In this document: positions 5,199 to 40,133 of the stretch, one piece after another
Layout: each line of letters opens with the position of its first letter
Position numbering within the stretch: the stretch's first letter is position 1
Origin: Steroidobacter agaridevorans
Lineage (GTDB): Bacteria > Pseudomonadota > Gammaproteobacteria > Steroidobacterales > Steroidobacteraceae
Reading direction: 5' to 3'
Assembly (NCBI RefSeq): GCF_009932555.1
Contig: NZ_BLJO01000005.1
Coordinates: 463,556 to 527,555, forward strand
Length of the DNA stretch: 64,000 nucleotides
Position numbers and translations under genes: made by a program
The notes under the pieces: generated by a model
Seen by the model: the letters and a program-made list of their open reading frames with translations, nothing else
What the model was told of the DNA's origin: nothing
Databases searched by the model: none

Positions 5199-5654
5199 CT
5201 AAGGTTGAAATTCCTCTGAAGTAACAAGCGAGCCGTCTGCCAACCTCAGCGTCAGCTTGCAACGCCCGGCCCGGTAGTCCCGTAAGAACTCATCAGGCAT
5301 AGCAAAGCCTGCAACCAGTTCCAGTTGCCTGGCCGAGCCGATCTCGATGATCTCCGGCATGCCATCCACCAGAGTGTAGGGACCGGGTGTCCATAACCCG
5401 GTGGTTCCCTCGTGACACGCCACCCATCCATCCCATGCACTAGCGCGCCCGGATTCTGTGCGGTCACCTCGCAGCGAGATTGCCCGGGCCGACTGGTTTG
5501 TCAGCGCAAACACAAATTCATTCTCCGAATTGCTCACGTGTCGCAAGCCGATCTCTCCCGTGATTGGAAGCGGCGGCGTGTCCGGCTGACATGCACACAG
5601 CACGGCAATCACTGCGAAGAGACAACTCCTCACAGTCCTTACTCTGAATCGCAT
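5199..5654 (-). CDS. hypothetical lipoprotein (151 aa)
   Basis: The N-terminus has a charged start, a hydrophobic core and the lipobox VLCAC with the acylated Cys at about residue 22, so it is a predicted lipoprotein. The mature part (from about ITGEIGLRHVSNSENEFVFALTNQSARAISLRGDR) reads as a beta-rich domain with paired cysteines (VACHEG and RAGRCKL). I know no named family for it. Its start lies 16 bases inside the end of the upstream gene on the same strand (5639-6364), so the two are translationally coupled and probably act together in the envelope. It converges with the glycine-zipper lipoprotein gene. Confidence 0.7.
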   Translation of the reverse strand: MRFRVRTVRSCLFAVIAVLCACQPDTPPLPITGEIGLRHVSNSENEFVFALTNQSARAISLRGDRTESGRASAWDGWVACHEGTTGLWTPGPYTLVDGMPEIIEIGSARQLELVAGFAMPDEFLRDYRAGRCKLTLRLADGSLVTSEEFQP

Positions 5655-6364
5655 TTGAGCGTCCGAGCTTCTTGCATGAGCCCACGAAACTCGCGAACCA
5701 GGTCGGCGCGCTTCTGATCGATCGTGGCCAGCCGATCCAGTTCCTCACTGGCTTTCGGGTTGCACGATAGTGCCAACGCCGCATACGCAGATTTGTTGTG
5801 GCAACACTTATCGTCGAGCGCGATTTGTCTCAGCTTCGCTATATCGCGCTCAGTCAGAAAGTCGCCGATCCCCATGATCGCGGTATGCGCGATCTCCGAG
5901 CTCGGCGACGTCAGTGAGCCGCGAAGAGTATCCAAAACAGACTCCAGTTGCGGGACCTCCAACATCCGATTCGCTTGCGCCTGCGCGAGCGCATTGGCGA
6001 CGGATACGCGGACGATCTCCTTCTGCATGCAATGATTCACAGCCGGATCGCCGCCACCGTCGGCCCAGGAGTCACTCAGGAACATCAACAGGTCGGCTGA
6101 CGCCGGCGAACCCAGCACGTCTCGCAGGATCGGCATGACTTTGCCCACGTCGCACTGTTGCAGCAGCTGCTTCAGTTCGTCTGCATCGACGCCCGTCGGC
6201 GTGGAAGCAATGAAGGCAGCCGGTGGCTCTTGCACCGATACCGGCTCGAGCTGCGATGATCTGCCACACCCTGCGGCAGCCACGCATGCAGTAACCAATA
6301 GGAACGAGCGCCATCCATAGCTCGCGCCGCTCATCGCTCGTGCCCGCGTCATCGATCCGATCAT
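5639..6364 (-). CDS. hypothetical lipoprotein with HEAT-like helical repeats
   Basis: I place the start at the ATG at 6364, behind GGAGTGAGG; an in-frame GTG at 6385 would add seven residues. A basic, hydrophobic leader ends at the lipobox AAAGC, giving a lipoprotein of roughly 205 mature residues. The mature part is mostly helical with repeated motifs such as LLQQCDVGKVMPILRDVLG and EIAHTAIMGIGDFLTERDIAKLRQIALDD, resembling HEAT-type scaffolds, plus scattered cysteines (QQCDVGK, NHCMQKE, DDKCCHNK) that may form disulfides. I do not recognise the family. It is the first gene of a coupled pair with the lipoprotein ending at 5199. The region in front of it holds the candidate sRNA gene on the other strand. 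Confidence 0.7.
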   Translation of the reverse strand: MIGSMTRARAMSGASYGWRSFLLVTACVAAAGCGRSSQLEPVSVQEPPAAFIASTPTGVDADELKQLLQQCDVGKVMPILRDVLGSPASADLLMFLSDSWADGGGDPAVNHCMQKEIVRVSVANALAQAQANRMLEVPQLESVLDTLRGSLTSPSSEIAHTAIMGIGDFLTERDIAKLRQIALDDKCCHNKSAYAALALSCNPKASEELDRLATIDQKRADLVREFRGLMQEARTLKCDSE

Positions 6365-6474
6365 CGCCTCACTCCGTTGATCCACTCACGCCGCGTAACC
6401 ACTCCGTAACCTAAGGTTTTCTCCTAGCTCAAATCTGCGAACTCATTGACAATTCGATGACAATTTCCGCATCT

Positions 6475-6491
6475 CGCACTACGCCGTCGCA
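6475..6491 (+). promoter_or_regulatory. weak second NtrC-like site
   Basis: CGCAC (6475-6479), seven bases, TCGCA (6487-6491) is a degenerate version of TGCAC-N7-GTGCA. Its centre is 31 bases, about three helical turns, upstream of the strong site at 6506-6522, the phasing seen for paired NtrC sites. Alone it would not be convincing. Confidence 0.3.
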
Positions 6492-6505
6492 TGATTGCGC
6501 TCCCA

Positions 6506-6522
6506 TGCACATCGCGAGTGCA
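6506..6522 (+). promoter_or_regulatory. NtrC-type enhancer site
   Basis: TGCAC (6506-6510), seven bases, GTGCA (6518-6522) matches the TGCAC-N7-GTGCA dyad of NtrC sites such as those at enteric glnA. With the flanking A and T the arms extend to six bases. The centre is about 97 bases upstream of the predicted sigma-54 start, a typical enhancer distance. Another bacterial enhancer-binding protein with a similar dyad remains possible. Confidence 0.6.
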
Positions 6523-6582
6523 TCCAAGCAAATCTCCGCGCATGCAGGCCCTTATTTTTCGCCGCTTCCAGGCCGCGGCGAG

Positions 6583-6600
6583 TTGGCACGCGTCCTGCAT
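6583..6600 (+). promoter_or_regulatory. sigma-54 (-24/-12) promoter
   Basis: TTGGCACGCGTCCTGCAT has the invariant GG (6585-6586) and GC (6597-6598) exactly ten bases apart and matches the YTGGCACG half of the consensus fully, with one mismatch in the TTGC half. Transcription should begin near 6610-6612 on the plus strand. No coding gene lies downstream on that strand before the terminator at 6694-6733. Confidence 0.65.
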
Positions 6601-6610
6601 TTATGAAACC

Positions 6611-6733
6611 GAGCGTCTCAGGACGCGAGTCTCTTCGGTTTCAACGTGCTTACGACGATGGTCAATTATCCCCCTGAGCCATCTCGGATGCAGGCGTGCG
6701 CGATGTGATGAACCTCGCGCACGCTATTTTTTT
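6611..6733 (+). ncRNA. candidate NtrC/sigma-54-dependent small RNA (about 123 nt)
   Basis: A free-standing transcription unit lies between two minus-strand genes: enhancer site, sigma-54 promoter and a textbook intrinsic terminator, all on the plus strand, with no plausible open frame. The RNA would have stem 1 GCGTC/GACGC with a tetraloop (6613-6626), stem 2 GATGG/CCATC (6657-6661 / 6679-6683) with a 17-base loop containing CCCCC, and the terminator stem (6694-6724) with seven Ts. A C-rich loop is a usual way for base-pairing sRNAs to reach purine-rich ribosome sites. Functionally it recalls nitrogen-regulated sRNAs such as Pseudomonas NrsZ, but I see no sequence similarity that I can claim. 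The rest of the 394-base gap 6365-6758 holds nothing else I can identify. Confidence 0.6.
6694..6733 (+). terminator. strong rho-independent terminator of the sRNA
   Basis: The perfect ten-base stem GCGTGCGCGA (6694-6703) / TCGCGCACGC (6715-6724), with an 11-base loop, is followed by TA and seven Ts (6727-6733). It is oriented for plus-strand transcription only. Both flanking protein genes are on the minus strand, so it must serve an independent plus-strand transcript. Confidence 0.88.
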
Positions 6734-6758
6734 CCCCCACCCTCTCGACGACTGAAAC

Positions 6759-7616
6759 TCAACGCACGCTCAGCCATTGCGGCACGAGCGGCCAGAGGGT
6801 TTGTTCGAACTGTGGACGGAAGAAGCCGAAGTGGCCGATGTGGCGGGCGCCGATGTCGCGAGGGGTGATGCGGCGATATTCGACGGGCGCATTCGCATAC
6901 AAGCCGTGCAGTGACTTGATCCCCTTCGCCGACATCATCTCGTCGTCGGTAAACGAAAGAGAAAGCATCGGCGTGCGCACGGACGCATAGTCGGCGCGAA
7001 CGTCATCGCCTTCGGCGCCCACGACGTATTCGCGATTGAGGCACCAGCGGCGCCACTGCTGCATCACTCCAAACGGCAGGTTGCCGACTTTGCGCAGACG
7101 TTTGCCGGGGAAATAACCAGCGGTGCGCAGCGCGAGCGGCACAAGGATGAACCACAGCCACCACACCGTGGACTTGGTGCGCCAGGTGTTCTCGAGCCAA
7201 TAACCCGTGCCGGCGGCGACGGTGATGACGCGATCGATGCGATCCCGGTTGGGAACGAGGCCGATCAATTGGCCGGCGAGGCTGTGGCCGATCCAGTGCA
7301 GCGGCACGTCGGGCATCTCGGACTTCACCCTGTCGATGATGGTGGCGCAGTCCTGTCGCGCCCAATCGAAGATGTTCACCGGGTAACCGCGCAACGAACG
7401 CGGCGCGGAGAAACCGATGCCGCGATAGTCGAACGTCGTCACGTGATAACCCTGCTGCGCGAGCCATTGCGCGAACTGGGTGTAGTACTTCTGAGCCACG
7501 CCCATCGCGGACGGAATGATCACCGCCGCCTTGGGCGAATCCGTCAGGCAAAACGTTCGAAACACCAGCGACGTGCCGTCGGGCAGAGTGATGTTATCTT
7601 GAGCGGGATCGAGCAT
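6759..7616 (-). CDS. alpha/beta hydrolase family protein
   Basis: The 285-residue protein starts at the ATG at 7616 behind GGAGAG; an upstream TTG at 7628 is less likely. The fold markers are VIIPSAMGVAQKYY near residue 35, the region YHVTTFDYRGIGFS, and the nucleophile elbow GHSLAGQL. An acid and His are expected in the C-terminal third (FTDDEMM and ARHIGHFGFF). It has no signal peptide. It resembles cytoplasmic hydrolases of the UCP037442 / YheT-like group; the substrate is unknown. Its start lies only 16 bases from the divergent nitroreductase start, so promoters for each must sit within the other coding region or in the tiny gap. Confidence 0.85.
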   Translation of the reverse strand: MLDPAQDNITLPDGTSLVFRTFCLTDSPKAAVIIPSAMGVAQKYYTQFAQWLAQQGYHVTTFDYRGIGFSAPRSLRGYPVNIFDWARQDCATIIDRVKSEMPDVPLHWIGHSLAGQLIGLVPNRDRIDRVITVAAGTGYWLENTWRTKSTVWWLWFILVPLALRTAGYFPGKRLRKVGNLPFGVMQQWRRWCLNREYVVGAEGDDVRADYASVRTPMLSLSFTDDEMMSAKGIKSLHGLYANAPVEYRRITPRDIGARHIGHFGFFRPQFEQTLWPLVPQWLSVR

Positions 7617-7632
7617 CCGTCTCTCCAACTAT

Positions 7633-8310
7633 ATGAATGTCACCAACGCCGTTGCCAGCCGGATCAGCTGTCGCGCCTTTCTCGACAAGCCGGTCGAGAA
7701 GCAGATCCTGGTCGAGATTTTGGAAACCGCCAAGCGCGCGCCGTCGGGTGGCAATCTACAACCTTGGTTAGTGCACGTGCTCGCCGGGCAACCGCTCGCC
7801 GAGTTCCTCGCGGCGATCCGCAGCAAGCGGTCGATGCTGCCGGTCGGCGAAGGCACCGAGTACAACATCTATCCACCCGAGCTGCACGATCCGTATCGTG
7901 CCCGTCGCTTCAAGTGCGGTGAAGACCTGTACGCGACAATCGGCATTCCTCGCGACAACAAGCTGGCGCGGATCCGGCAGTTCACACGCAACTACGAATT
8001 CTTCGGCGCGCCGGTGGGGCTGTTCTTTTGCATCGACCGCCGCATGGGCCAGGATCAGTGGGCCGATCTGGGCATGTTCATGCAGACCGTCATGCTGCTC
8101 GCTCGCGAGCGCGGCCTGCACACCTGCGCGCAGGAAGCCTGGGCGATCTGGCACAAGACGATCGCGGAGTTCCTGCGACTGCCGCCGGACGTGATGCTCT
8201 TCAGCGGCATGGCGCTGGGTTATATGGACGAGAGCGCGCCGATCAATTCGCTGCGCACCGAGCGCGCGGCGCTCGATGACTTCGCGACGTTGCAGGGCTT
8301 TGAGACTTAG
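7633..8310 (+). CDS. nitroreductase family protein
   Basis: This 225-residue FMN-dependent oxidoreductase of the nitroreductase fold opens with AVASRISCRAFLDKPVEKQI and KRAPSGGNLQPW, the FMN-phosphate-binding motifs. A second FMN contact region lies around GMALGYMDESAPINSLRTER near the C-terminus. Family members reduce nitroaromatics, quinones or enoyl groups using NAD(P)H in the cytoplasm; the natural substrate is not evident. There is no clear ribosome site before the ATG (the preceding bases are TCCAACTAT), so translation may be leaderless. It is divergent from the alpha/beta hydrolase, and its stop overlaps the convergent small exported-protein gene by four bases. Confidence 0.9.
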   Translation: MNVTNAVASRISCRAFLDKPVEKQILVEILETAKRAPSGGNLQPWLVHVLAGQPLAEFLAAIRSKRSMLPVGEGTEYNIYPPELHDPYRARRFKCGEDLYATIGIPRDNKLARIRQFTRNYEFFGAPVGLFFCIDRRMGQDQWADLGMFMQTVMLLARERGLHTCAQEAWAIWHKTIAEFLRLPPDVMLFSGMALGYMDESAPINSLRTERAALDDFATLQGFET

Positions 8311-40095: not shown

Positions 40096-40133
40096 CACGT
40101 TGCAATCCGTGTGCCAGGGGTCCGGAGTCGTGT

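Follow-up and report, generated by a model that had tools for sequence, protein, structure and literature searches.

Does a protein-free gap in the genome of Steroidobacter agaridevorans hold the gene of a small RNA (sRNA) that is made when nitrogen is short? This question was raised by a first-pass annotation of the window, that is, the whole stretch of 64,000 nucleotides that was analysed, which belongs to a genome of 8.0 Mb (G000). The gap lies, as that annotation had stated, between two minus-strand protein genes: the open reading frame (ORF) 5639-6385, which gave a HEAT-repeat match below the cut-off in Pfam, and the ORF 6759-7628, which encodes an alpha/beta hydrolase. On the plus strand of this gap the annotation had placed a complete sRNA gene of a possibly new family, with NtrC-type sites, a sigma-54 promoter and an intrinsic terminator. 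The locus was compared among 14 genomes of the genus including G000 (designated by G numbers; members of the genus in the public collection include Steroidobacter, Peristeroidobacter and Povalibacter). The data point to a conserved sRNA gene that is probably under NtrC control and represents a new family of a known kind.

Features of the predicted sRNA gene

The positions of the features are collected in Table 1. The dyad, the sigma-54 element with its GG and GC ten bases apart and the terminator with seven Ts were all found on the sequence where the first-pass annotation had put them, and the T run follows the terminator stem on the plus strand only. The start had been placed at 6611, giving an RNA of about 123 nt; this was near, but counting 12 from the C of the -12 element gives 6610 and 124 nt. 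Within the transcript itself no ORF is kept across 12 genomes; the gap is overlapped by two mechanically called plus-strand ORFs (6491-6868 and 6495-6677), both starting upstream of the promoter.

Table 1. Features of the predicted sRNA gene (positions in the window)
Feature	Position	Strand	Remarks
Weak second NtrC-type site	6475..6491	+	Matches the dyad at 7 of 10 positions; main dyad centred 31 bp further downstream, about three helical turns
Main NtrC-type dyad TGCACATCGCGAGTGCA (TGCAC-N7-GTGCA)	6506..6522	+	Exact copy; centre at about -96 from the predicted start
Sigma-54 promoter TTGGCACGCGTCCTGCAT	6583..6600	+	-24 GG at 6585-6586, -12 GC at 6597-6598, ten bases between
Predicted sRNA, about 124 nt	6610..6733	+	Start deduced from the -12 element; 3' end taken at the T run
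5' hairpin GCGUC-UCAG-GACGC	6613..6626	+	From folding, suggestive; sequence kept in the nearest relatives only
Conserved core hairpin (UGC/GCA, CGA/UCG, GAUGG/CCAUC)	6647..6692	+	Pairing in the alignment
UCCCCCUGAG, proposed antisense seed	6669..6678	+	C run in the apical loop; CCCCCUGA invariant in 12 of 12
Intrinsic terminator	6693..6733	+	Stem 6693-6725, seven Ts 6727-6733; covariation

An inverted repeat, GAAACCGA ... TCGGTTTC, was also seen at 6605-6642. It spans the predicted start, with its left arm mostly upstream of +1, and by eye it is nearly intact in G000, G011, G002, G008 and G010, with one change each in G002 and G008.

The motifs were compared with their chance level in the window and in the own genome. 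The sigma-54 pattern TGGCACNNNNNNTGCW matched twice in the window, against 0.38 matches expected, and 5 of 100 shuffles did as well. The dyad with up to one mismatch also occurred twice, against 3.47 expected, the copy at 6506-6522 being exact. Exact dyads were present at 7 places of the whole own genome, compared with 3 for the reversed control pattern. A sigma-54 site lies near two of these seven, the sRNA locus and a locus named L050, and the five without one count against an NtrC reading. Taken alone, the motifs of the window are little above chance, and a single sequence is weak evidence; they rise above chance because they are conserved among the genomes of the genus and recur at amtB. 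The other exact sigma-54-type site in the window, TGGCACACGGATTGCA, lies on the minus strand at 40101-40116.

Distribution of the RNA

A nucleotide search with the RNA matched G000 and 11 of the 13 other genomes of the genus (12 of 14), and none of 46 genomes outside it. In two of the matched genomes the match stopped short of the promoter, covering only 6626-6733 in G004 and 6613-6700 in G003; the dyad and the -24/-12 element were still present in both. A covariance model of the RNA core scored its 12 genomes at 72 to 115 bits, where matches occur by construction, the model having been built from these same genomes, all of them found beforehand by the nucleotide search. The RNA was missing from G009, which is closed and 100% complete, and from G006, which is 75% complete; a search of these two for the hydrolase neighbour, run without a positive control, did not find it. 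NtrC, RpoN and an amtB region with the dyad are still found in G009, and the lack of the RNA from this closed and complete genome means that the sRNA is dispensable.

Outside the genus, samples of 296 genomes from the order (E up to 0.01) and of 369 from the class (E up to 0.001) gave two weak matches, L027 and L028, both without the loop; the two samples overlap, and covariance searches of more than 40 genomes used stricter filters, which lose some weak matches. Inspection by eye showed the CCCCCUGA loop neither in these two nor in two second matches inside the genus, L025 and L026. L025 and L027 look like unrelated terminators and L026 and L028 like coding sequence, and all four were set aside. 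An exact pattern of the loop and the part that follows it, applied to one genome per species in the public collection, hit 17 stretches, 11 of them in this group; the other six (Streptomyces twice, Robiginitalea, Homoserinimonas, Thermobifida and Chloroflexi) were judged by eye, from their flanks, to be chance matches.

No match to Rfam 15 was found in the window. At E up to 10, a search of 6480-6740 gave no more than two families, PK-BYV at 18.5 bits (cut-off 50) and P9 at 15.7 (cut-off 43), so that the covariance-model search proposed in the first-pass annotation returned no family at gathering score. The literature found for Steroidobacter and small RNA contained, by title and abstract start, nothing about such an RNA. 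Within the reach of these searches the family is apparently confined to the genus, and the idea of a new family stood: no homologue with the loop was found outside the genus in the genomes searched.

Conservation of the promoter

The sequence [CT]TGGCA[CT]-N6-TGCA precedes the RNA in all 12 loci. GCAC-N7-GTGC is likewise perfect in all 12, and in 11 of them the outer T and A are present too, the two outermost bases alone being different in G013. Retention of the GG/GC and dyad positions in relatives had been named in advance as a test of the gene, and they are kept though the DNA around the RNA has diverged. The distance from the dyad centre to the GG in the 12 loci was 71, 71, 71, 72, 73, 62, 61, 61, 61, 73, 72 and 61 bp. 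These values form two classes, 61-62 bp (5 genomes) and 71-73 bp (7 genomes), which are one helical turn apart, as would be expected of an activator that has to remain on the same side of the helix. The combined pattern of exact dyad and promoter found 14 places in 11 of the 14 genomes, and 11 of these places are the sRNA promoter, while the reversed control found none in the same 14 genomes; the three places elsewhere lie one each in G011, G004 and G008.

The weaker copy of the dyad noted in the first-pass annotation 31 bp upstream is poor in sequence but real as a class. Among 283 upstream offsets scored over the 12 sRNA loci, the pair -32/-31 came first (mean 6.25 matching positions out of 10, versus a background of 3.49, sd 0.44), a rank that is inflated by related sequences and on which two different promoters, this one and that of amtB, yet agree. 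The rank held when G011, G002 and G008 were left out (mean 6.33). In the table of single offsets, however, -31 came fourth, behind 0 and the self-overlap offsets +/-13, which counts against the second site.

Structure of the RNA and test for coding

The predicted RNA of 124 nt in the window folded with -45.9 kcal/mol (z -3.06), and none of 200 shuffles was as stable. Across the 12 genomes the predicted length ranged from 103 to 175 nt. The alignment of the core (12 rows, 11 of them distinct) contained 23 pairs, with 97.2% of cells paired and five pairs changed on both sides, and on four of five measures the observed value was reached by none of 500 shuffles. The fifth measure, further pair types, counts against the structure, as 205 of 500 shuffles reached the observed value. 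Sliding the partner by 1-3 columns left at most 46.2% paired. The terminator covaries across the genomes: four of its 11 pairs changed on both sides, and pairing was kept. Only one pair changed on both sides in the conserved hairpin, most pairs of which never vary, and the cells of its two helices were paired to 93.9% and 99.0%.

CCCCCUGA was invariant in all 12 RNAs. The CCCCC was mostly unpaired (0.76-1.0) in 10 of the 12 full-length folds, but in those of G003 and G007 the C run was about half paired (unpaired 0.41 and 0.47), which counts against an open loop. In the fold of the window the unpaired probability was 1.0 for the CCCCC but only 0.31 for the UGAG that follows; the UGAG was mostly paired in most folds, and this too counts against it. 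The 5' part varies in length and sets the C run at 38 to 111 nt, counted from the predicted start. A hairpin at the 5' end appeared in most folds, and the fraction of shuffles that folded as well was 0.015 to 0.745 in the 10 of 12 genomes in which the 5' part was long enough. This hairpin was dropped as evidence for the start site because its stability was not clearly above that of the shuffles. In L010 (G001) the 5' part is about 50 nt longer than that of the window, with the C run at 111 instead of 60, and it forms a strong hairpin (-33.5 kcal/mol versus a shuffle mean of -25.2).

The conservation could be one of codons if the transcript encoded a tiny peptide (MVNYPPEPSRMQACAM in the window), and in several genomes a frame starting with MV(N/D) does run through PPEP. 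This frame, however, ends after MVSPP in G013; in G004 PLSH replaces PPEP, and in G012 the frame is shifted downstream of the loop. In G003, G012, G005, G001 and G007 it runs through the whole terminator without a stop. By eye, no Shine-Dalgarno sequence stands ahead of it, and CCCCCTGA does not vary in any of the 12 genomes, third codon positions included. As the frame is not kept, the peptide-coding reading is largely refuted and was rejected; we give it hardly any credence.

Comparison with the amtB region and probable assignment to NtrC

The gene amtB is a textbook target of NtrC. glnK and, behind it, amtB are preceded in the own genome by a region with TGGCACAGATGATGCA and CGCACCGAGAGAGTGCG and a centre-to-GG distance of 61 bp; the position of glnK between promoter and amtB was read in this genome only. 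The same pair of dyad and sigma-54 site was present upstream of amtB in 12 of 13 loci of the genus, at 60-61 bp in 10, at 72 bp in one and at 106 bp in one. The last case is G009, which has in addition a copy with one mismatch at 74. In G005 the pair was not found at the threshold used, which counts against its generality. As a class, the amtB regions (L085-L096) combine a strong NtrC-type site with a weak one at a distance of 31-32 bp, and the offset pair -32/-31 again ranked first of 283 (mean 6.67 versus 3.52; 12 regions, G005 left out). Two NtrC sites about 32 bp apart are also present at glnA of E. coli. Two observations count against the likeness: in the table of single offsets for glnK, -32 ties with +56 and falls behind 0 and +13, and in the own genome the two dyads differ in their distance, 71 bp for the sRNA and 61 bp for glnK.

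NtrC (TIGR01818) and RpoN (TIGR02395) were each above the cut-off in 13 of the 14 genomes, the exception being the 75%-complete G006. The matches to TIGR01818 were numerous, at least 56-60 per genome. Because so many other sigma-54 activators are present, the assignment to NtrC rests on likeness to the amtB region. The same abundance would suit a sigma-54-dependent promoter that is served by an activator other than NtrC and answers to a signal other than nitrogen. We consider this very unlikely, since the dyad, the distance classes and the weak second site resemble those upstream of amtB, and since L050, where a further exact dyad and sigma-54 site occur, precedes the gene of a putative nitrate-type ABC-transporter binding protein. 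Control of the predicted sRNA by NtrC and sigma-54 is well supported by these comparisons, and a promoter conserved in sequence, helical phase and second site would fix the signal to be expected. The first-pass annotation was right in what it observed and, as far as sequence can tell, also in its reading of an NtrC/sigma-54 sRNA, which is supported by the conserved promoter, dyad, hairpin and terminator and by the same architecture upstream of amtB.

The locus L050 lies outside the window (contig C3 of G000, near 842106) and shows, at about 1501-1800, an exact NtrC-type dyad with a perfect sigma-54 site. From its translation, by eye, we take the gene behind this promoter to encode the binding protein of a nitrate-type ABC transporter. 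The leader between promoter and start codon contains a perfect GC-rich hairpin with eight Ts, which suggests nitrate-responsive attenuation.

Proposed mode of action

Under nitrogen limitation, phosphorylated NtrC would bind the strong and the weak dyad, about three helical turns apart, and the NtrC-bound dyads would drive sigma-54 RNA polymerase at the sRNA promoter, as the architecture shared with the upstream region of amtB suggests. The RNA would end at its own terminator; comparison and folding show a variable 5' part and the conserved hairpin with the invariant CCCCCUGA, its C run unpaired in the loop. This C-rich loop may pair antisense with G-rich stretches at or near ribosome-binding sites, and the translation of a set of mRNAs would then be lowered when nitrogen is short. 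We regard it as likely that the locus is a stand-alone gene whose product, a non-coding RNA of about 124 nt, is expressed under NtrC and sigma-54 and acts antisense through its C-rich loop. For the action itself, the most likely model is that of a C-rich-loop antisense sRNA resembling sX13 of Xanthomonas.

Exact complements of the loop ahead of start codons (CTCAGGGGGA-N1-14-ATG) occurred 15 times in 9 of the 14 genomes, compared with once for the reversed control, and 10 of the 15 sites head an open frame of at least 128 aa. Seven of the 15 were run on Pfam, and two of these are PQQ dehydrogenases, one from G008 and one from G001. Apart from these, inspection by eye found different genes in different genomes, and G009, which is without the RNA, has two of the sites. 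The search was rejected as evidence because ordinary Shine-Dalgarno bias can account for such an excess over the control. In L101 (G008) and L110 (G001), at about 1500-1520, the PQQ-dehydrogenase genes start just behind CTCAGGGGGA, the complement of UCCCCCUGAG; this may be chance. A wider picture, which we offer tentatively and hold to be possible though doubtful, is that a C-loop sRNA in the style of sX13 has become a dedicated, stand-alone member of the NtrC regulon of Steroidobacter and its kin, with a tandem enhancer like that of amtB, and that on nitrogen starvation it translationally silences many mRNAs that have a G-rich ribosome-binding site, possibly those of exported oxidative enzymes such as PQQ dehydrogenases, tying carbon oxidation to nitrogen supply.

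The RNA could also be made as described and bind a protein, or sponge another RNA, through its C-rich hairpin, with no silencing of mRNAs. Invariance of CCCCCUGA in 12 of 12 RNAs would suit a protein-binding site no less than a seed, and the start-codon complement search in the 14 genomes found no conserved mRNA target; on the other side, we know of no protein that binds such a C-rich loop. The published work on sX13 bears on both sides. According to that report, even compensatory mutants of sX13 failed to restore regulation, but repression needed both C-rich loop motifs and G-rich mRNA motifs, and a Helicobacter sRNA that acts as a repressor of tlpB has the identical UCCCCCU loop (PMC3771888). 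On balance, binding of a protein or sponging appears unlikely to us.

Antisense pairing with distant mRNAs also has to be weighed against an action in cis, in which the RNA would serve the adjacent genes as a leader, such as an attenuator, or would be antisense to one of them, such as the hydrolase gene 6759-7628. In 8 of the 11 loci with a visible downstream side (G003 ends at a contig edge) the hydrolase gene does follow the terminator in convergent orientation, and in G001 the RNA is followed, about 200 bp on, by the start of a nitroreductase gene that runs in its direction. In the window, however, the nearest recognised plus-strand gene after the terminator, a nitroreductase gene at 7633, is 900 bp on, and in G004, G005 and G001 the hydrolase is absent within about 1.5 kb, but the RNA and its promoter persist. 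Because the neighbours change between genomes, an attenuator or other neighbour-acting RNA is unlikely, and we see very little chance of it.

Comparison with known nitrogen-related and C-rich-loop sRNAs

The antisense sRNA predicted here was compared with nitrogen-linked sRNAs as their published descriptions, used in part, present them. GlnZ of enterobacteria is an RpoN-dependent, base-pairing sRNA of the NtrC regulon, which is released from the 3' UTR of glnA (PMC9731577). Membership of the NtrC/RpoN regulon and base pairing are likewise predicted for the Steroidobacter sRNA; unlike GlnZ, which is cut from the glnA mRNA, it has its own promoter. NcS25 of Burkholderia cenocepacia is a conserved sRNA of 84 nt whose porin target serves nitrogen metabolism; in the parts of the report drawn on, it showed no response to nitrogen depletion and no sigma-54-like motif before its gene (PMC10117139), in contrast to the -24/-12 element before the Steroidobacter sRNA in 12 of 12 loci. 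Other nitrogen-linked sRNAs have been reported (e.g. PMC6606865, PMC8092317).

NrsZ of Pseudomonas aeruginosa is the only stand-alone sRNA for which the literature searched describes activation by NtrC and sigma-54. Reviews describe it as induced by NtrB/C and RpoN under nitrogen limitation (PMC8395346, PMC9308961), as about 226 nt long, processed and located between ntrC and PA5126, and as carrying the motif ACAGGCAG (PMC9308961). The Steroidobacter sRNA resembles it as a stand-alone sRNA with predicted NtrC/RpoN control, but it is about 124 nt long (103-175 nt over the 12 genomes), it lies on contig C5 of its own genome with ntrC on contig C6, and ACAGGCAG is absent from all 12 predicted transcripts. 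By motif, length and location, with the features of NrsZ taken from these reviews, it is not NrsZ.

In its loop the sRNA perhaps resembles sX13 of Xanthomonas, a structured RNA of 115 nt with three C-rich loops, one of them with UCCCCCU, and the mRNAs that it represses mostly carry G-rich motifs near the start codon (PMC3771888). The excerpts of that report on which we rely make no mention of control by NtrC or sigma-54. The RNAs described here share a C-rich apical loop with CCCCC in 12 of 12 and UCCCCCU in 11 of 12, and differ in that one C-rich loop is conserved instead of three, the likeness being one of loop features. If the C loop works as it does in sX13, the Steroidobacter sRNA would connect a nitrogen signal with a loop motif that is found in unrelated sRNAs.
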